A DNA stretch of 64,000 bases from Lachnospiraceae bacterium. GTDB taxonomy: Bacteria > Bacillota > Clostridia > Lachnospirales > Lachnospiraceae. Where the stretch lies: assembly GCA_022510745.1 (NCBI GenBank), contig JAFLSY010000008.1, forward strand, positions 62,001 to 126,000, written 5' to 3'. This document shows, piece by piece, positions 51,760 through 64,000 of this stretch (positions within the stretch are counted from its first letter, which is position 1; every line of letters starts with the position of its first letter). Made by a program: the position numbers and the translations under genes. Below the pieces are notes generated by a model that was not told the origin of the DNA, ran no database searches, and saw only the letters and a list, made by a program, of their open reading frames with translations.

Positions 51760-52548
51760 CTACCCCAATGCCACATCCAATATCATCATCAGTAAAAAAC
51801 CGACCAGTACACCGATGGTACCCGCATGGGAATGTTCCCCCAAATGCGCCTCCGGTATCAATTCTTCCACCACCACATAAATCATGGCGCCGGCCGCAAA
51901 GGATAAAAGCCAGGGCATATAGGGCACCAACAAAGCAGCTAAGAGTACCGTCAGAATACCGAAGATCGGCTCCACAATACCGGACAAACAGCCGCATAAG
52001 AAAGCCTTTCCGGCTGTAGTTCCTTCCTTTTTTAACGGCAGGGAAATAGCCGCTCCTTCCGGAAAATTCTGAATACCGATACCGATCGCCAGTGCAAAAG
52101 CAGCTGCATAAGCGGCACCGCCGCCCTCTAAGGCCGCATTGGCAAAAGCCAACCCCATGGCCATTCCTTCCGGAATGTTGTGGAGCGTTACGGCAAATAC
52201 CATCAAAGTTGTTCTATGCAGAGAAGTCCTGGGGCCCTCCGCCTCTCTCTCCCCTATATGCAGATGGGGAATCAACTTATCCATCAGCAGCAAAAAGCAG
52301 GCTCCCAAAGCAAATCCGCCGGCTGCGGGTACCCAGCCGATACTGCCGGTTTCCTCCGCCTGCTCAATGGCCGGCATCAAAAGTGACCACACACTTGCGG
52401 CAATCATCACACCTGCCGCAAATCCCAGAAAAGATTTGTGCACAGATTCCTTCATTTCCTTTCTGAAAAAAAAGACCACAGCTGCACCAAGTGTAGTCAT
52501 GAGCCAGGCAAAACCGGTTCCCTCCAGAGCCAGCACTATAGTACTCAT
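51760..52548 (-). CDS. ZIP family metal transporter
   Basis: A 262-residue membrane transporter, probably importing zinc. Eight hydrophobic segments and the two metal-site helices are visible: LHNIPEGMAMGLA (about 120-132) and IQNFPEGAAISLP (about 160-172). The variable loop holds HLHIGERE. Its placement after two COG0523 GTPases, one with a huge His tract, supports zinc. Some ZIP proteins of this bacterial clade carry other divalent metals. Confidence 0.92.
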   Translation of the reverse strand: MSTIVLALEGTGFAWLMTTLGAAVVFFFRKEMKESVHKSFLGFAAGVMIAASVWSLLMPAIEQAEETGSIGWVPAAGGFALGACFLLLMDKLIPHLHIGEREAEGPRTSLHRTTLMVFAVTLHNIPEGMAMGLAFANAALEGGGAAYAAAFALAIGIGIQNFPEGAAISLPLKKEGTTAGKAFLCGCLSGIVEPIFGILTVLLAALLVPYMPWLLSFAAGAMIYVVVEELIPEAHLGEHSHAGTIGVLVGFLLMMILDVALG

Positions 52549-52556
52549 AAAACCTC

Positions 52557-53486
52557 CTAATTAAAGCTGATTACTTCATTTTTGGGGGCCTTCGCCTTTT
52601 CCACACTGACAGCGTGCAGAACAGGTCCCTCTCCCCTGTAATCCTCCCAATATTCCTTCTCCACCTTTGCCCGTACTCTTACCCATTCCTTCTGGGCCAG
52701 ATCCTCCGCTCCGGCATATTCACAGGCATAACCCAAGAAGGCCATATCGTCGGCACAGCAGGTCATGGCCATCCGTCCCGGAACAAAATATCCTTTGGGA
52801 AAGCTTTCCGGTCGCAGAACCATGGCAACAAATTCCACAGTCTTTCCTGCGTAACGCTCCAGATGCTCCATACTGTCCAGATACCAGATTCCGTAACCAT
52901 AATCATCCAGTTTGAGCACCTCCGCTTTCAGATCATAGGGCAGATCGTCCTCCATGATCGAATTGATCTCGCCGTTAGCATCTTCAAAAATAATCTCGGC
53001 TTTGGGATTGACCGCTTTGACATTCCGCTTGTAGCTGCTTAAATCCTGAATGCCGTCACAGCGGTTAAAAATGATCATTTCCGAGTTCCGTATCATCTCG
53101 GCCAACAGAGAACGCATATTGGTGTAATACATGGGAAAGGTGGAGCCATCGATGGTCGTAATCTGCTGCTCAACTTTCCAGTGCCAAGGCAGCTTCATGT
53201 TCTTAAAATTCCACATTCCGTTATATTCTATGATAATCCGCTCCGGCCTGTGCTTCTTTTCCAATTCGATAAGACGGCTGGGCGTAAAATCGGACTCCTC
53301 CTCTATTACCTCTACTACGGAACGACTCCTTCTTAACAGCTCCGGATCATATTCTATTTCTCCTTCTTCACAGAGAAGAATCAGTGTCTTTCCCTTCATC
53401 TGAAAATAAGGCTGTGCCAGCGTATAAGTAATAAACTCTGTCTTACCACTCTCCAGAAATCCGTTGATGATATAAACCGCTTTCAT
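52557..53486 (-). CDS. COG0523-like GTPase fused to a YcgQ-type C-terminal domain
   Basis: A 309-residue protein. The N-terminal part is a G3E GTPase (P-loop NGFLESGKTEF at 8-18, NRCDG base-recognition motif near 140) but lacks the CxCC metal motif. The C-terminal part (about 215-300: GKTVEFVAMVLRPE, GRMAMTCCADDMAFLGYACE) resembles the C-terminal domain of TIGR03943/YcgQ proteins, which pair with a predicted zinc-regulated permease. It sits between the His-rich GTPase and the ZIP gene. Role in metal delivery is inferred. Confidence 0.8.
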   Translation of the reverse strand: MKAVYIINGFLESGKTEFITYTLAQPYFQMKGKTLILLCEEGEIEYDPELLRRSRSVVEVIEEESDFTPSRLIELEKKHRPERIIIEYNGMWNFKNMKLPWHWKVEQQITTIDGSTFPMYYTNMRSLLAEMIRNSEMIIFNRCDGIQDLSSYKRNVKAVNPKAEIIFEDANGEINSIMEDDLPYDLKAEVLKLDDYGYGIWYLDSMEHLERYAGKTVEFVAMVLRPESFPKGYFVPGRMAMTCCADDMAFLGYACEYAGAEDLAQKEWVRVRAKVEKEYWEDYRGEGPVLHAVSVEKAKAPKNEVISFN

Positions 53487-53491
53487 TCCTC

Positions 53492-54682
53492 TTAATTCCT
53501 TCCAAATAATGCTTCCAGCTTATCCTCTTTTAACTCAGCACCGATAACGCACAGCTTACCGGTTACCTGAGGCTTTCCTCTTCGGATATCGCTCTCACCC
53601 GGCACGTAATCAAAATAAATCCACTCGCCTTCTGCTGCAGCTACCATGCCTTTCGCACGCAGGATCATGCCGTAATCACCGCTGTCCAATGCATCCAGCA
53701 ATCCTGAAATTTCCTCCTCATTATATACGGCCGGAGTTTCCCTGCCCCAGCTGGAGAACACCTCATCCGCATGGTGATGGTGGTGCTCATGGTCATGATC
53801 GTGATGGTGATGATGCTCATGGTCATGAGCATGGTCATGTCCGTCATGGTGATGCTCATGATCGTGGTCGTGTTCATCTCCGTGATGGTGATGGTGATGC
53901 TCATGGTCATACTCATCTCCGTGGTGGTGATGCTCATGATCGTGGCAGCCGCAGGTGCAGCCTTCCCCATGCTCATGCTCATGATCATGGTGGTGGTGCT
54001 CGTGAGCATCGTGGTGATGGTGTTCATGGTCATGCTCATGTTCATGAGCCTGCTCCATCAGCTCCTTGATCATATCCTCCAGTTTGTCCGCACCCTCAAT
54101 AGTCTTTAAAATATCCGTACCCTGCAGTTCCTCCCAAGGAGTAGTAATGATAGTAGCTTCTTTATTATACTCCCTTAGCATGGAGATACAGGTTTCTAAC
54201 TTCTCCTGACTCATCCCTGCAGTACGGCTTAAAATAATGGTTCCCGCATAGGCAATCTGATTGCAGAAGAACTCCCCGAAATTCTTAATATACATTTTGC
54301 ACTTTCCGGCGTCTACAACTGCAACCGCAGAATTTACTTCCACTTCAATATCTGCAGCCACATTCTCTACCGCACGGATCACGTCGGAAAGCTTGCCCAC
54401 TCCCGAAGGCTCAATCAGCACACGCTCCGGCGTATAAGTAGTCAAGACTTCTTTTAACGAGGTACCGAAATCCCCCACCAGAGAACAGCAGATACAGCCG
54501 GAATTCATCTCCTTAATTTCAATGCCGGCTTCCTTTAAAAACCCGCCGTCAATACCGATTTCACCAAATTCGTTTTCAATCAGCACTACTTTTGTATCCG
54601 CCAGTGCTTCCTTTAACAACTTTTTGATCAAAGTCGTTTTTCCTGCTCCTAAAAAGCCGGAAAAAATATCTATCTTTGTCAT
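53492..54682 (-). CDS. COG0523 (CobW/ZNG1-like) metallochaperone with giant His-rich tract
   Basis: A 396-residue G3E GTPase: P-loop GFLGAGKTT at 9-17, the metal-binding CxCC motif in SGCICCS (about 61-67), and the CobW C-terminal domain (about 325-396). Between them residues about 213-304 are almost entirely His, Asp and Glu, with an internal CTCGC motif. COG0523 proteins use GTP to load zinc or another metal into client enzymes. The ATG at 54682 follows AAAGGTGG. It is the first gene of a metal operon with the fused GTPase and a ZIP transporter. Confidence 0.9.
   Translation of the reverse strand: MTKIDIFSGFLGAGKTTLIKKLLKEALADTKVVLIENEFGEIGIDGGFLKEAGIEIKEMNSGCICCSLVGDFGTSLKEVLTTYTPERVLIEPSGVGKLSDVIRAVENVAADIEVEVNSAVAVVDAGKCKMYIKNFGEFFCNQIAYAGTIILSRTAGMSQEKLETCISMLREYNKEATIITTPWEELQGTDILKTIEGADKLEDMIKELMEQAHEHEHDHEHHHHDAHEHHHHDHEHEHGEGCTCGCHDHEHHHHGDEYDHEHHHHHHGDEHDHDHEHHHDGHDHAHDHEHHHHHDHDHEHHHHHADEVFSSWGRETPAVYNEEEISGLLDALDSGDYGMILRAKGMVAAAEGEWIYFDYVPGESDIRRGKPQVTGKLCVIGAELKEDKLEALFGRN
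53771..54046 (-). repeat. Low-complexity DNA encoding the His/Asp/Glu tract
   Basis: About 276 bases made almost entirely of CAT, CAC, GAT, GAC, GAA and GAG codons. The slippage-prone composition suggests the tract length varies between strains. Confidence 0.85.
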
Positions 54683-54748
54683 TCTATTTCCACCTTTCCA
54701 TAATATATCCTTTTGCACTTAGTATATTGTGAAACACTTTCCCCCGAA

Positions 54749-57294: not shown

Positions 57295-57993
57295 TCATTC
57301 TCTGATAAGCGTATATACATTACCGGCTCCAACATCAGTTCCATTAAAATATGTCGTTCCGTTTATATCATAATGAACAGCATATGTAATACCTCCCCCA
57401 CCATCTCGTACTCCAATTACCTGTACCTCTCCTGTACTGGGAATTGTATATTCAACAGGCTTATTTTTAATCATAAACGGATCACCTAATGGAACTCCAT
57501 CTACAAGAACCTGTACATAATCGCCATCCTCTGCAGCATAATCCCAAATATATAGTTTGGTAGAATCCGAGCGGGAGGAATGTGTGATTGTATAATCCTG
57601 CGCCGGCATTTCTTCATCCGACCATAATAATAGAGTTCCTATACCCAATTCAGTTGATAGCTGCAATTCAAGTGCTTCTGTTGCTGCGCTTGATTGATTC
57701 ACATTGGCCACCGGATTTAATAGAATCATACTAAATAGGGCGGCAGCACAAATTCCTAGAAAAGCAAAACCGGACTTTCTCATCAGCCTATCTATTTTAG
57801 GTTTTTCTTGCATCCTGTTCCTATTATAATTGTATATGGCTTGCTGCTGTGCATATAAATCCGCTGCATAATTTTGAGCTGATTCAGGATAATATAAGGG
57901 TTGATTATTCTGTTGCTGCACATTCACTCCGGATTGCGGTATTTGTTGCATATTCATATTATTAAACCTTTCGCCTTGGTTACTGCCGTTCAT
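57295..57993 (-). CDS. Gln/Asn-rich single-pass protein with external beta domain (AAA cassette)
   Basis: A 232-residue protein of unknown function. The N-terminal 60 residues are rich in Asn, Gln and Tyr and probably disordered in the cytoplasm. A transmembrane helix lies at about 74-95. The external part (about 100-232) looks like a compact beta sandwich: LYIWDYAAEDGDYVQVLVDG and EVQVIGVRDGGGGITYAVHY. The ATG at 57993 follows AAAGGGAAG and overlaps the upstream gene by 14 bases, so all three genes of the cassette are translationally linked. Confidence 0.78.
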   Translation of the reverse strand: MNGSNQGERFNNMNMQQIPQSGVNVQQQNNQPLYYPESAQNYAADLYAQQQAIYNYNRNRMQEKPKIDRLMRKSGFAFLGICAAALFSMILLNPVANVNQSSAATEALELQLSTELGIGTLLLWSDEEMPAQDYTITHSSRSDSTKLYIWDYAAEDGDYVQVLVDGVPLGDPFMIKNKPVEYTIPSTGEVQVIGVRDGGGGITYAVHYDINGTTYFNGTDVGAGNVYTLIRE

Positions 57994-58438
57994 AATCTTC
58001 CCTTTCAAATTTCATTGGTTTTTTATAAAAATACCATCCCATCGCCAATCGACATACAATTATCTGAATGATCATAAGCACTATAAATACCGTATGTCTT
58101 GTATCATTTTGTACTTGATATCCAAAATTCAGCAGTTTTTCTGCAATGGCAAGAATAATTAAATCCGTTAACAAAATTGTTGTATATGGATACAGCCACG
58201 GCATTACCTTAAAACATTTACGAAAAGCAGGAACAAGCAATGTTATCCCAAAAACCAAAGAACATAAGACTATTGCAGGCATCCCAACTGCGCTTGTTTC
58301 AAATCCCGATTTAATGATTGTACTTATAGCAGACGGAATCATCAGAATGAATATTGGTAAAAGTAAAAGCCACCAAATGAGTACCGCAAAAAACCATATG
58401 ATTGCTGCTATATTAGAAATCCACTTTAACATAATCAA
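57980..58438 (-). CDS. Small four-helix membrane protein of the AAA cassette
   Basis: A 152-residue protein with about four transmembrane segments (near 7-35, 50-70, 82-100, 115-137) and a short basic/acidic tail (KKPMKFEREDYERQ). No family recognised. It overlaps the end of the large AAA gene by four bases and the start of the next gene by 14, so it is expressed with both. It may anchor or be remodelled by the ATPase; that is inference from coupling alone. Confidence 0.75.
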   Translation of the reverse strand: MIMLKWISNIAAIIWFFAVLIWWLLLLPIFILMIPSAISTIIKSGFETSAVGMPAIVLCSLVFGITLLVPAFRKCFKVMPWLYPYTTILLTDLIILAIAEKLLNFGYQVQNDTRHTVFIVLMIIQIIVCRLAMGWYFYKKPMKFEREDYERQ

Positions 58439-61400
58439 ATCACCTCTCGTATATCGTCTTCGGTAATGGTCATCAAATCGTTTTTACTAAGTTGCTTACC
58501 GGTGCTTAATCGTAACGCCTGTGCATGCAATGATTTTTCAAACACATTTCTCACAAATCTGCCATTTCCAAATTGCGGCTGCATTTTTTCTTTCTCTAAT
58601 ATCTGTCCTAATAATTCCCTTGCTTCCGCATTTAATATGTATCCCTGATCGGAATACATTTGAGTTGCAATAACAAGTAATTCTTCCGTCGTGTAGTCTT
58701 CAAAAGTGATTATATTCGGAAATCTTGATTCCAGGCCAACATTTTGATTTAAAAATTTTTGCATATCATCATTATATCCTGCTAAGATCACAACCAGTCT
58801 GTCCCTGTTATCATCCATCATTTTAACAAGCGTATCTATTGATTCTTTACCAAAATCATGATTGCCTCCTTGTGCAAGAGAATATGCTTCATCAATAAAT
58901 AATACTCCATCTAATGCACTTTCTATTACTTCCTTGGTTTTAATTGCTGTTTGTCCAACATATCCTGCCACCAGTCCCGCACGGTCTGTTTCTATTAATT
59001 TATTGGTACGAATGACACCCATATTGGCAAATACATTTGCCATAATTCTTGCCATCATGGTTTTTCCGGTTCCCGGATTACCCATAAAGATCATGTGCAG
59101 GGTTTGCGTATCATTAATCTTTAATCCTTGTTTCTTACGCTCTTCTCTTACCTTTAACCATGCGTTTAAGCTGCGAATGTATTTTTTAACAGCTTCCAGT
59201 CCGATTACTTTTTCTAAATCTTTTTCCAGATCATAAGTATTTGCCTGCTGTATATCAGAAACAATATCTTCAGGGATAATTAATATCATATCCTCATTTG
59301 AGACATCACTGACCGCAATCCTATTAGACTGTCTGCGTATAATTTCTTCCAAAAAGTTTCTGACCATACGTCCGTTTCCGGATGAACTATCAGAATGCCT
59401 TTTTAATATACCTATCTCTTCCTTAAATATGAGCGTGGCTTCATCAGATAACATAAAACCCTTTTTGGTAATCATTTCTTTTCCAATTTCAAAGAGTTCC
59501 TCTACAGTATAATCCGGAAATTCTATCTGCAGTGGAAAGCGGGATTCCAAACCTGAATTTGCTTTCATAAAATTACGCATTTCTTTTGTATATCCTGCCA
59601 GAATGACAACAATTTCTCCCCGATAATCCTCGATCAGTTTAACCAATGTATCTACACATTCCTGTCCAAAGCCGCTGCCATCGTTAGTAATTGCATAGGC
59701 TTCATCAATAAAAAGTACACCTCCCAATGCAGACTTAAACACTTCCTCGGTCCTTTTTGCAGTGTGACCAACATACTCCCCTACTAAATCTCCTTTACCT
59801 GTCTCTACTAAATGACCGGTTTTTAAGAGGCCCATGGAATGAAACATACCTGCCACGATACGAGCCATTGTTGTTTTTCCTGTTCCGGGATTCCCACTGA
59901 ATATCATATTCAAGGACTGTGTTGTATCAACCTGTAAATCTGCTTTTTTACGTTTCTCCCTTGCAAGAAGAACATTATATTGCGTCCTGACAAATTCTTT
60001 TACTTCATTTAGTCCTATAATATGGGACATTTCTTTCTCTAAATCAAATTCCTCTTTATCATCAAATCCAAAATCCTCGGCTGTTAAAAGTTCCAAATTT
60101 TGATTATTTTCCTGTGCAATACGCTGTGACTGCTTCAAAATGGCCGCTTCTATAAGGTTTCTAACCAATCGTCCGTTTCCGCCATCATTTCTTCCTTTAA
60201 TCTGGCTTTTCTCAAACTTCTCCAATAAAGAATCCCGGCATTCTTCAGCAATAACATACCCTTTACCCTTTGCTGTAATCTTTGCGATCTGATACATCTC
60301 ATCCGGTGTATAATCCTCAAAGAAAATCTTATTGGGAAATCTTGACTTTAACCCAGGATTCATTTTGATGAAATTATCCATTTCATCCGCATATCCTGCA
60401 AGAATAACGACCAGATTGTTTCTATTATCCTCCATACCCTTTACTAAGGCATCAATCGCTTCCAATCCGAATGCATCCTGCTTATCCCGACAGATAGAGT
60501 AAGCCTCATCAATAAATAACACTCCACCGATCGCTGATTTAATAGCTTGGGATACCAATACCGCCGTTTGCCCCACATACTGTCCTATCAAATCAGAACG
60601 ACTAACCTCCCTCAAGTGTCCCGAAGAAAGAACCCCAATCGCTTTTAAATATCTCGACACAAGCCGTGCAATCGTCGTTTTTCCGGTTCCGGGATTACCG
60701 GTAAAAATCATATGCATAGAAATATCCGCTATTTTCAGGCCCTGACTTTCCCGAAGTTGCTGAACTTTTAAATTATTTTCAAGACTCAATACATATTCTT
60801 TGACGGAACTAAGCCCTATTACCTCGGACAACTCCTTCTTAACTTGCTCGACTCCTATTGTATCATATCTCTTTATAAGAGTATCTAATCTGAATTTTTG
60901 TTCTCTGATTTCGATTACGTACCCATTTTCATAATCAAGGTATACTTCTTCCTCTCTGGTTGGTCTTTGCAACCGATACTCTGCGAGCGGTTTATAGATG
61001 TTTTCTTCCAGATATACCTGCAATGCCTTAATCCCGGCAGCCGCATTATATTGTCCATACACGTGATTAAAAAATGTTGTCTTTGGTATTAGCCTCATTT
61101 GAAGTTGCTGTCTTACTCTCAATACTAAATCACTGACAAGCTTTCCAACTATTTCTCTCAATTCATTCTGTCCAAAAGCATTAAGGTGGATAATATCCCC
61201 CATTTTACGCATAAACTCTTGTCCCAATACATCCGCTATCTGCGCTTCACCGGCACATGATGTAAATACAAAATACTTACCATTGGCTTTTAGCTCTGAA
61301 ACCACAGAAGTACTTAACATCCCTGTGGCCTCAACCAACATACCATTTTGCGGCATATATCTTTTTGATAACTGATACACACCATCTGAAATTAATCTAG

Positions 61401-62046
61401 AAATTATATTTATATCATCAAATCGTATTTGTTCAATATTTTCAAAAACAACTAATTCTGTCTGACCATTTAACGCTTTATATAAGTCACTTAAGAACAA
61501 TGTATTATCCGGATTTTCTTTATAGCCGGACAAATCGATTCTAAAAATGGAAGGATAACGCAAAATATTTCTTTGGTTTAAAATCCAACACATTACAGCA
61601 GCTGCATTCACTTTTCCTCTGCTTTCCGTTCCGATCATTAAAATACTGTTTTTAGGTCTGAATCCATCATACCCCATAACAAATGGACGTTTGAACGCCT
61701 GACAGATACTTACTATATCTTCCTGCATACCGATCCAACGACTGCGAAATTCGGTTTCTAAACCTTCAAATTTATTGTATACCTTATCTGCACTTATGTA
61801 TGGGGTCGGTGTATACTCCCTCTGCACGTTATTGCTTCCCCTATTTGCCATCGGAAGAGCAGAAGACATAGCAGGGTTTACCTTCTGCTGCATCATCTGA
61901 TTTCCATTCACAATCCTATGATCCATAGGCATTGTCTGATTAGGAATATTCTTTTCTCTTACGAAAAAACCGTTATTGATTATCTCATCTATTATTTGGA
62001 TTTCAGGAAAAAGAAACCTTAGCACTTTCTTAATTTTTTCCTTCAT
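58435..62046 (-). CDS. Giant protein with one degenerate and three CbbX/SpoVK-type AAA+ modules
   Basis: A 1203-residue ATPase. After a Met/Gln/Asn-rich linker (about 40-80) comes a decayed Clp-like AAA module (about 130-310): its P-loop is GTESRGKV and its Walker B reads VVFENIE. Three complete CbbX/SpoVK-type modules follow, with GNPGTGKT near 451, 719 and 990, LFIDEAY near 511, 779 and 1050, and SRFP arginine fingers near 569, 836 and 1108. Relatives include SpoVK, CbbX and the EccA ATPases of type VII secretion, but no ESX gene is present. The ATG at 62046 fits AAAGGAG. Confidence 0.88.
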   Translation of the reverse strand: MKEKIKKVLRFLFPEIQIIDEIINNGFFVREKNIPNQTMPMDHRIVNGNQMMQQKVNPAMSSALPMANRGSNNVQREYTPTPYISADKVYNKFEGLETEFRSRWIGMQEDIVSICQAFKRPFVMGYDGFRPKNSILMIGTESRGKVNAAAVMCWILNQRNILRYPSIFRIDLSGYKENPDNTLFLSDLYKALNGQTELVVFENIEQIRFDDINIISRLISDGVYQLSKRYMPQNGMLVEATGMLSTSVVSELKANGKYFVFTSCAGEAQIADVLGQEFMRKMGDIIHLNAFGQNELREIVGKLVSDLVLRVRQQLQMRLIPKTTFFNHVYGQYNAAAGIKALQVYLEENIYKPLAEYRLQRPTREEEVYLDYENGYVIEIREQKFRLDTLIKRYDTIGVEQVKKELSEVIGLSSVKEYVLSLENNLKVQQLRESQGLKIADISMHMIFTGNPGTGKTTIARLVSRYLKAIGVLSSGHLREVSRSDLIGQYVGQTAVLVSQAIKSAIGGVLFIDEAYSICRDKQDAFGLEAIDALVKGMEDNRNNLVVILAGYADEMDNFIKMNPGLKSRFPNKIFFEDYTPDEMYQIAKITAKGKGYVIAEECRDSLLEKFEKSQIKGRNDGGNGRLVRNLIEAAILKQSQRIAQENNQNLELLTAEDFGFDDKEEFDLEKEMSHIIGLNEVKEFVRTQYNVLLAREKRKKADLQVDTTQSLNMIFSGNPGTGKTTMARIVAGMFHSMGLLKTGHLVETGKGDLVGEYVGHTAKRTEEVFKSALGGVLFIDEAYAITNDGSGFGQECVDTLVKLIEDYRGEIVVILAGYTKEMRNFMKANSGLESRFPLQIEFPDYTVEELFEIGKEMITKKGFMLSDEATLIFKEEIGILKRHSDSSSGNGRMVRNFLEEIIRRQSNRIAVSDVSNEDMILIIPEDIVSDIQQANTYDLEKDLEKVIGLEAVKKYIRSLNAWLKVREERKKQGLKINDTQTLHMIFMGNPGTGKTMMARIMANVFANMGVIRTNKLIETDRAGLVAGYVGQTAIKTKEVIESALDGVLFIDEAYSLAQGGNHDFGKESIDTLVKMMDDNRDRLVVILAGYNDDMQKFLNQNVGLESRFPNIITFEDYTTEELLVIATQMYSDQGYILNAEARELLGQILEKEKMQPQFGNGRFVRNVFEKSLHAQALRLSTGKQLSKNDLMTITEDDIREVI

Positions 62047-62627: not shown

Positions 62628-63758
62628 TTAATATTCCGGAAGATAATCTAATAATTCATTAACCCTTTCTTCCGTCAGTTCGGCCGCCTTTAAGTTCACA
62701 ACCATGGAATACATACTTCCTCCTTCATATTCAGCACCGGCTTCCTGCATGGCCGCTTCTTTTTCAGCAATCCAGTTCCGTTCCTCTTCGGTCAGTTTCC
62801 GCATGCTCTCCTCATCCAGATTTTCTTTCAAAATCCCCCAGATGGTGTTAAGGGCTTCATCCCAAGTGGTATATAACTCATAAGATATTTGGTTCATCTC
62901 CGCCTGGGTCTGTGCATCTTGAAGTTCTTCTTTTAGTTCAATGCTCTTTAAATCTGCATTAAACCATGCGCCTACCGCTCTACCTCTGACATCTGCGGCA
63001 GCATAGTCATAACTGGAAAAACCCTCCCCTTCCTTTACATTATAAAGCCCATAGAAGGGAAGCTCCGTTTCCGTTGTATTTTCCAAATAATAATAGCCAA
63101 CCCAGCCCCGATATTCTTCCGGCAGATCGGCAAGCTTTGCACCGGGAAGATACATATACAAATCTTCCGCATCGTCCAGTCCATATGCAGTACCATAGTC
63201 AAAATAGTATCCGTCTTTAATCTCTTCTCCAAATCCGAGCGGATATTCAATAGCAGCTATTTGAAAGACATAGGTTGTTTCATCTATCTTTTCCGGCTCT
63301 GTAAAAGTTCCGTAAAAATCACTGCAAAAGATGGTACCATTGGGGTATCCCTCACCCGTTACGCCTAAATCACTGTCCTGAAAATGTCCGTCAAAGCTTC
63401 CGTCCTCATGAATATGGAGTACAGTGTACCAGCCACCGGCACCGCTGGAAAAATAAAACTCCAGACCGGCAACATCCGCAAAAGAAAATCCACCAAAAGA
63501 AAGGGCTCCCGCTTCTTCTTGTATCTGTCCGGTTCCTTCTCCATCCTGTGTCCCTTCCGGTTGTGTATCATCTGTCAGAGTATTCTCCGGCTGTGCCGTA
63601 TTCTGTTCATTCGGAATGCTTTCCGCGATGCTATCTAAGAATCTGTTCCCGGTCTGCTCCGTACTTTCAGATGCATTCCCACTGTCCGCACCGCATCCGC
63701 TAAGCATCCCTGCCATCAGACAAAAGCATACTATTAAGCCTACTATTTTCTTTTGCAT
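62628..63758 (-). CDS. Lipoprotein with C-terminal LprI-like domain
   Basis: A 376-residue secreted lipoprotein with lipobox MLSGC (Cys22) and a Glu/Gln/Thr-rich linker to about residue 85. The middle (about 90-270) is a beta-rich region of no known family (GGFSFADVAGLEFYFSSGAG). The end (about 285-376) resembles the LprI lysozyme-inhibitor family: AEMNQISYELYTTWDEALN, EERNWIAEKEAAM and LTEERVNELLDYL. The ATG at 63758 follows GGAGAG. It may protect against lysozyme or bind the cell wall, which is inference. Confidence 0.75.
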   Translation of the reverse strand: MQKKIVGLIVCFCLMAGMLSGCGADSGNASESTEQTGNRFLDSIAESIPNEQNTAQPENTLTDDTQPEGTQDGEGTGQIQEEAGALSFGGFSFADVAGLEFYFSSGAGGWYTVLHIHEDGSFDGHFQDSDLGVTGEGYPNGTIFCSDFYGTFTEPEKIDETTYVFQIAAIEYPLGFGEEIKDGYYFDYGTAYGLDDAEDLYMYLPGAKLADLPEEYRGWVGYYYLENTTETELPFYGLYNVKEGEGFSSYDYAAADVRGRAVGAWFNADLKSIELKEELQDAQTQAEMNQISYELYTTWDEALNTIWGILKENLDEESMRKLTEEERNWIAEKEAAMQEAGAEYEGGSMYSMVVNLKAAELTEERVNELLDYLPEY

Positions 63759-63777
63759 TTTTTCTCTCCGTATACAC

Positions 63778-64000
63778 CTAAGATAGCCCCATGGTCTTCT
63801 CGGCAAAAACGGAATATTCCATCACTGTTTTGCCCGTCAATTCCCTGCTGCGCTTATCCGGTCCCTGGCCTCCGATAAACACTCTGTATTCTCCCTCATG
63901 CACCATCAGGCTGCCTTCCTCGTCATATAGAGCAAAAGCCTCCATGGGAAGATGTATACTTACCTGCTTTTTCTCCCCGGGTTTTAAAGCGCACTTACAG
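63778..64000 (-). CDS. Glycoside hydrolase family 3, C-terminal end (partial)
   Basis: The last 73 codons of a gene cut by the right edge. The visible part (LKPGEKKQVSIHLPM, then FALYDEEGSLMVHEGEY and VFIGGQGPDKRS) is the C-terminal fibronectin III-like domain of family 3 beta-glucosidases and related enzymes, with the usual Pro-Gly-Glu and Gly-Gly-x-x-Pro-Asp positions. The catalytic domains lie outside the window, so the sugar cleaved cannot be stated. Confidence 0.85.
   Translation of the reverse strand, partial: CKCALKPGEKKQVSIHLPMEAFALYDEEGSLMVHEGEYRVFIGGQGPDKRSRELTGKTVMEYSVFAEKTMGLS

Follow-up and report, generated by a model that had tools for sequence, protein, structure and literature searches.

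Within the window (the whole 64,000-nucleotide stretch of Lachnospiraceae DNA analysed here), three open reading frames run along the minus strand from 62046 to 57295 in the order AAA, TM4, EXT (Table 1). A first-pass annotation had described these genes as a three-gene cassette, and we recovered all three frames, at those coordinates and on that strand. Its account of the gene junctions, overlaps of 4 and 14 bases, held in part. Starting EXT at ATG 57993, its likely start, gives exactly the 14-base overlap with TM4. The 4-base overlap with the AAA stop arises only if TM4 begins at TTG 58438; ATG 58432 is the more likely TM4 start, since it has 'AGAGGTG' upstream and leaves a 2-base gap after AAA.

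Table 1. Genes of the cassette and features of their products, with coordinates in the window
Feature	Coordinates	Strand	Comment
AAA gene	58435..62046	-	ATG at 62046, stop at 58435; product of 1203 aa, with a decayed Clp-D2-like module ahead of three intact CbbX/SpoVK-type AAA+ modules
Cassette-specific N-terminal motif FLFPExQI...GFI, residues 1-32	61951..62046	-	29/29 cassette AAAs with intact 5' end, 0/12 non-cassette relatives
Predicted inactive ClpC-D2-like AAA module, residues ~85-395	60862..61794	-	Walker B D/E replaced by E/N; profile versus ClpC D2, E = 3e-20; alignments
First intact CbbX module, residues 399-663	60058..60852	-	Motifs, module trees
Middle intact CbbX module, residues 665-932	59251..60054	-	Two-module relatives have lost it; Mogibacterium has two copies
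Last intact CbbX module, residues 936-1202	58441..59241	-	Clade held only cassette AAAs in the sample
TM4 gene	57980..58432	-	Membrane protein with four helices, ~150 residues; matches no Pfam family; TTG at 58438 is an alternative start
EXT gene	57295..57993	-	Gln/Asn-rich tail in the cytosol, then a single TM helix and an external beta domain; matches no Pfam family; TTG at 58008 is an alternative start
EXT transmembrane helix, residues 78-97	57718..57777	-	Preceded by positive cluster
EXT external beta-sandwich domain	57298..57618	-	Near-invariant WDYAAEDGDYV and DGGGGIT motifs

The AAA protein had been read as one decayed Clp-like module followed by three complete CbbX/SpoVK-type modules, and its motifs and profile matches bear this out. 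Each CbbX module of the window protein (First, Middle and Last) retains intact Walker A (GNPGTGKT), Walker B (LFIDEA), sensor 1 (ILAGY), arginine-finger (GLxSRF) and sensor 2 (GNGRxVRN) motifs, and matches to AAA plus AAA_lid_6 fall in three stretches of the protein. In alignments of the N-terminal module, the Walker B 'LDE' reads 'FEN', on which basis we consider the module dead – it should not hydrolyse ATP. An earlier hhalign comparison of a four-sequence alignment of this module with a Clp-like AAA was weak; what decided the assignment was a 30-sequence family profile, which matched ClpC D2 in the PDB (3pxi residues 487-756, E = 3e-20) over its whole length. Across cassettes the active modules keep their Walker, sensor and arginine-finger motifs with at most scattered departures, and the Walker B of the N-terminal module is decayed throughout. 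Nearly all modules carry an aromatic pore loop (mostly YVG), implying that the motor would thread polypeptides.

The ~30-residue start of the AAA protein is built around 'FLFPExQI' followed by 'GFI'. This motif recurs in every cassette AAA with an intact 5' end, even in one that lacks the dead module and in the Paenibacillus copies that diverge most, and was absent from the 12 non-cassette relatives; a strict pattern misses variants such as FLLPEYQI and FLFPEWQV, which were scored by eye. Being specific to the cassette and separated from the rest of the AAA by a low-complexity linker, the motif is the leading candidate dock to TM4 or EXT.

AlphaFold models agree with the first-pass reading of the two smaller proteins as membrane partners. 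TM4 is modelled with four membrane-spanning helical segments (pLDDT 90), and EXT with one transmembrane helix and an eight-strand C-terminal domain (pLDDT ~95 there). The positive cluster before the EXT helix sets the topology as N-in/C-out. In Pfam, neither protein matched any family coherently, giving weak and incoherent matches only; we found no solved structure related to EXT by sequence, and a structural fold search with TM4 returned no match, transporter-like or otherwise.

A genome-wide scan seeded with the EXT alignment alone identified 37 other species, in Bacillota, Campylobacteraceae, Synergistes and Holophagales. The carriers include Granulicatella, Campylobacteraceae, Selenomonas, Anaerovibrio and Synergistes, none of which is known to sporulate. 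TM4 lies directly before EXT in 37/37 loci (in the two most divergent, L078 and L079, the gene was identified from its position, its length and an alignment at 18% identity), and the AAA gene lies directly upstream of TM4 in 35/37. In one of the two loci without AAA a contig end cuts the gene off (L062); in the other AAA is missing and the 5' end of TM4 is also damaged (L044). A few MAGs have a broken or truncated AAA (L058, L070, L072). Flanking genes on both sides vary between loci. With the same gene order in 37 other species, the arrangement is far beyond chance, and our literature search found no publication describing an AAA-TM4-EXT cassette – in keeping with the first-pass view of a genuine, apparently undescribed unit. 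A DUF4236-type gene was rejected as a general fourth member, being found just upstream of AAA in five loci only (L047, L049, L053, L055 and L057; gaps of 0-31 bases).

To avoid the bias of searching by EXT, we also ran AAA- and partner-based searches of even samples. Among 397 Lachnospiraceae, the two genomes with AAA matches of E below 1e-150 were also the two with a strong TM4 match. The 398 evenly sampled Bacillota gave a similar picture, the two genomes with a cassette-type AAA again being those with strong EXT matches. The cassette is thus rare, at ~0.5% of sampled genomes in the Lachnospiraceae and Bacillota samples, yet tightly linked. The first-pass proposal hinged on homologues of the AAA protein sitting beside these membrane genes, and they do: AAA precedes TM4 in all judgeable loci but L044, and cassette AAA and EXT share genomes. 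The remaining AAA relatives in the Bacillota sample consist of a dead module with First, Middle and a decayed module, a beta-helix-like region with two CbbX modules, or a repeat domain with two CbbX modules, and we found no TM4- or EXT-type partners for them. Two such proteins with two CbbX modules stand without TM4 or EXT: that of G744 (L096:5864-8806) has an apparent beta-helix N-terminus, and that of G788 (L097:6126-8960) has Sel1-like repeats.

Pairwise distances of the First module, Last module, TM4 and EXT correlate with one another (r 0.78-0.91; 0/1000 permutations as high), and by these sequence measures AAA, TM4 and EXT are strictly co-inherited. In a concatenated tree, Granulicatella groups with uncultured Eubacterium (support 0.999), Synergistes, Selenomonas, Mogibacterium and Lachnospiraceae are intermixed, and Paenibacillus species fall in three separate places. 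The cassette has moved as a unit between distant bacterial groups. No cassette copy was found in viral or phage collections, and none was seen on a plasmid, where a single distant EXT-type match (Methylorubrum) was the only hit.

Patchy, horizontally moved distribution of a compact three-gene unit would suit anti-phage or anti-plasmid defence, in which EXT or AAA would sense attack and TM4 would be a membrane-damaging effector; moreover, the L063 copy adjoins a type I restriction system and EXT-type variants lie near conjugation genes. We nevertheless think this role unlikely. No recurrent defence families occurred among the 101 neighbouring proteins scanned, viral and phage copies were not found, and the exposed domain shows an extreme conservation that is not typical of arms-race parts. 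PADLOC gave no match for TM4 or EXT and only generic ATPase models for AAA – IetA and the TRIP13-like AAA of defence systems share generic AAA+ similarity with it, but its score with the NCBIfam IteA model is 86 against a cut-off of 510, and no partner genes of IetA or TRIP13-like systems were recognised.

The number of active modules per chain is two, three or four, with three the commonest. Two-module chains, such as that of Anaerovibrio, retain First and Last, and the four-module chain of Mogibacterium has two Middle copies; only Middle is lost or copied, and the order First-Middle-Last is fixed. In trees of single modules we observed position-specific clades for First (support 0.97) and Middle (1.0) once relatives were included. 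All 31 last modules, and nothing else, formed the Last clade, with support of 0.999 in one tree and 0.60 with more outgroups. An IQ-TREE tree (no support values) recovers the same three groups. Non-cassette AAA proteins with a dead module have First, some also have Middle, and none has Last. As judged from these trees and architectures, the modules are position-specific paralogues and their order is ancient.

This module series bears on how the protein might assemble. A fixed, ancient order and the prevalence of three active modules per chain would suit the proposal, made in the first-pass annotation, that three active modules of a chain form a fixed-order ring, for example as a pseudo-hexameric dimer. 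Chains with two and four active modules argue the other way: four modules cannot build one hexameric ring, and Middle is dispensable; its loss or copying would disrupt a fixed-order ring. We hold a single ring to be quite improbable. Stacked rings, or tiers, would fit fixed-order paralogues equally well or better, and could lose or gain a tier. The same annotation had suggested that the dead N-terminal module recruits the substrate. Such recruitment cannot be universal, because the Synergistes AAA (L064:6785-9373) has cleanly lost the dead Clp-like module and kept the N-terminal motif and three active modules.

The active modules belong with the SpoVK/CbbX/EccA clade, sharing with it the combination of AAA and AAA_lid_6, the GY sensor-1 signature, arginine fingers and an aromatic pore loop; ILAGY, GLxSRF and GNGRxVRN are present in all three window modules. 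Compared with solved relatives, the AAA protein matches CbbX (3zuh, E = 2e-59) and EccA1 (9lur, E = 1e-54), the latter a close relative that aligns best with the First module. Unlike SpoVK, CbbX and EccA, the cassette AAA has two to four tandem modules with a dead Clp-D2-like module in front, and the cassette contributes co-inherited membrane and external partners. The relatives named in the relevant section of PMC10659427 carry N-terminal domains other than this Clp-D2-like module.

Automated naming is confounded by this tandem structure. The mutually exclusive NCBIfam equivalog cut-offs for SpoVK, EccA and CbbX are all passed at once, because whole-protein scores sum three tandem modules. 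With the SpoVK model (TIGR02881, cut-off 422.95 bits) a score of 889 bits is reached only by adding up three stretches of ~296 each; we rejected a SpoVK identity, as a single AAA falls short of the cut-off and the hosts include non-sporulating groups. CbbX is a Rubisco activase linked to Rubisco genes, and that identity was set aside with no Rubisco gene recognised in the inspected neighbourhoods. EccA functions in type VII secretion and has an N-terminal TPR domain and ESX neighbours; here the N-terminal part is a Clp-D2-like module, and no ESX genes were recognised in the neighbourhoods.

A looser kinship, that of a SpoVK-like sporulation chaperone acting on peptidoglycan synthesis, would accord with the NCBIfam name and with the action of SpoVK on MurG (PMC10659427), but it is very improbable. 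The SpoVK score is passed only through three summed modules, and the cassette occurs in the five non-sporulating groups named above, which also makes the sporulation phenotype envisaged by the first-pass annotation unlikely. SpoVK itself is restricted to sporulating Firmicutes, according to the same paper.

A dedicated secretion or membrane-insertion aid, with AAA feeding a client into or out of a TM4/EXT complex (compare EccA in type VII secretion), is another reading to which we give only a small chance. The closeness of EccA1, a membrane unit formed by TM4 and EXT, and pore loops that imply polypeptide threading all speak for it. Against it, the genes beside the cassette vary by locus and include no recognised ESX-type gene or recurrent client, and TM4 has no transporter-like fold match.

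Two further comparisons concern the other parts of the chain. The N-terminal module is homologous to ClpC/ClpB D2 along its whole length but is without the Walker-B acidic pair, and no peptidase partner was seen; an ATPase-competent Clp/Hsp100 unfoldase D2 was rejected on the replacement of LDE by FEN. Tandem AAA+ modules in one chain, likely as stacked tiers, are also a feature of type II AAA+ proteins (p97/Cdc48, ClpB, NSF), from which the cassette AAA differs in its AAA+ clade, in having up to four active modules and in its bacterial membrane partners.

We compared conservation across the three proteins. The motor modules average 63-67% pairwise identity and the external domain 60%, so that the external domain is about as conserved as the motors. 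TM4 at 36% and the dead module at 34% are not, and the EXT tail has only 14%. Such conservation of a surface domain, in bacteria with one membrane and with two alike, suggests that its ligand is universal. Its best structural neighbours are CBM60 and CBM36, calcium-dependent carbohydrate-binding beta-sandwich modules, with 85-88 residues aligned at 13-14% identity, a Foldseek E of ~0.04 and a Z of 6.7, which is in the range that the tool deems common chance arrangements and below its advised trust level. The likeness of the modelled domain to these modules is a lead only.

EXT-type domains also occur with other AAA+ motors. On a plasmid of Methylorubrum sp. B1-46 (L080:6821-8403), the gene for a short EXT-type protein (hhalign probability 98%) overlaps by one base the gene for a TM-anchored Clp-type AAA. 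In G666 (L087:5349-7925, minus strand), an EXT-type protein was matched at E = 4e-7 by a profile from which it had been left out. After it come a TM protein, whose NPCBM carbohydrate-binding domain is borderline, and a polytopic-membrane/CbbX fusion with several TM helices and one intact CbbX module. Homology between the membrane part of this fusion and TM4 was not detected, and no second copy of the cluster was found in 22 genomes of its class. Grouping of the fusion's CbbX module with Last (0.91 in one tree, 0.5 and lost with more outgroups) was not used. These independent pairings in unrelated bacteria support a functional link between external domain, membrane and AAA+ motor. The Methylorubrum pair adjoins a MobQ relaxase and a T4SS coupling-protein gene, and the G666 cluster sits on a conjugation-like contig.

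Several nearby or related loci were recorded alongside. In genus relatives, a dead-module AAA with one First lies beside VWA, MoxR-like and rhomboid-like genes (L027:7974-11074, L028:8479-12924), possibly a sister system. An LprI-like lipoprotein gene adjoins AAA in two settings, upstream in the window (62628-63806) and downstream of the single-module AAA in G011 (L028:10698-12305). Elsewhere in the window, positions 51760-54718 encode a transporter of the ZIP type together with a pair of CobW/COG0523-type GTPases, one of which contains a very long His-rich stretch, in what looks like a metal (zinc) handling cluster.

Studied members of the SpoVK-EccA-CbbX clade are dedicated chaperones (PMC10659427). 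Membership of this family, together with the anatomy of the three proteins, leads us to favour the cassette as one envelope-coupled, dedicated AAA+ protein-remodelling machine with stacked tiers and a putative client, docked through TM4 and EXT – an interpretation that we put at about even. The genes, their motifs, conservation and linkage are seen in the sequence; tier assembly, docking, sensing and client handling we infer as follows. Six chains would stack their modules in tiers, a single one of them dead and Clp-like and between two and four of them active CbbX tiers. TM4 and EXT would hold the cytosolic AAA at the membrane, probably through the N-terminal motif and possibly through the Last module. 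The external beta domain of EXT may bind an envelope ligand, perhaps a glycan or Ca2+, and TM4 might relay or gate, which is a guess. The motor would then thread or remodel, at the membrane or within it, a client of its own, much as CbbX, EccA and SpoVK each serve a single client.

A more far-reaching form of this model, which we advance only tentatively and consider less probable, is that an extracytoplasmic beta-sandwich sensor controls a multi-tier AAA+ unfoldase across the membrane. The cassette would then be a previously unknown, horizontally spreading signalling or remodelling machine, whose tiers, two to four of them active CbbX and one dead Clp, may be added or dropped as modular units over evolution.

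Automated annotation probably hides the cassette AAA as 'stage V sporulation protein K', and the summing of scores over tandem modules is an annotation pitfall for equivalog cut-offs. The clade of CbbX, EccA and SpoVK serves dedicated clients and few of its systems are known; the cassette is a conserved, self-contained three-gene member, present in at least 38 species of several phyla, with named culturable strains such as Mesobacillus and Bacillus sinesaloumensis among them, and its TM4 and EXT are two protein families new to Pfam. Chains with two, three or four active modules occur in nature, which makes one ring versus stacked rings directly testable for tandem AAA+ modules. The cassette is also a candidate means of controlling a cytosolic unfoldase from outside the cell.
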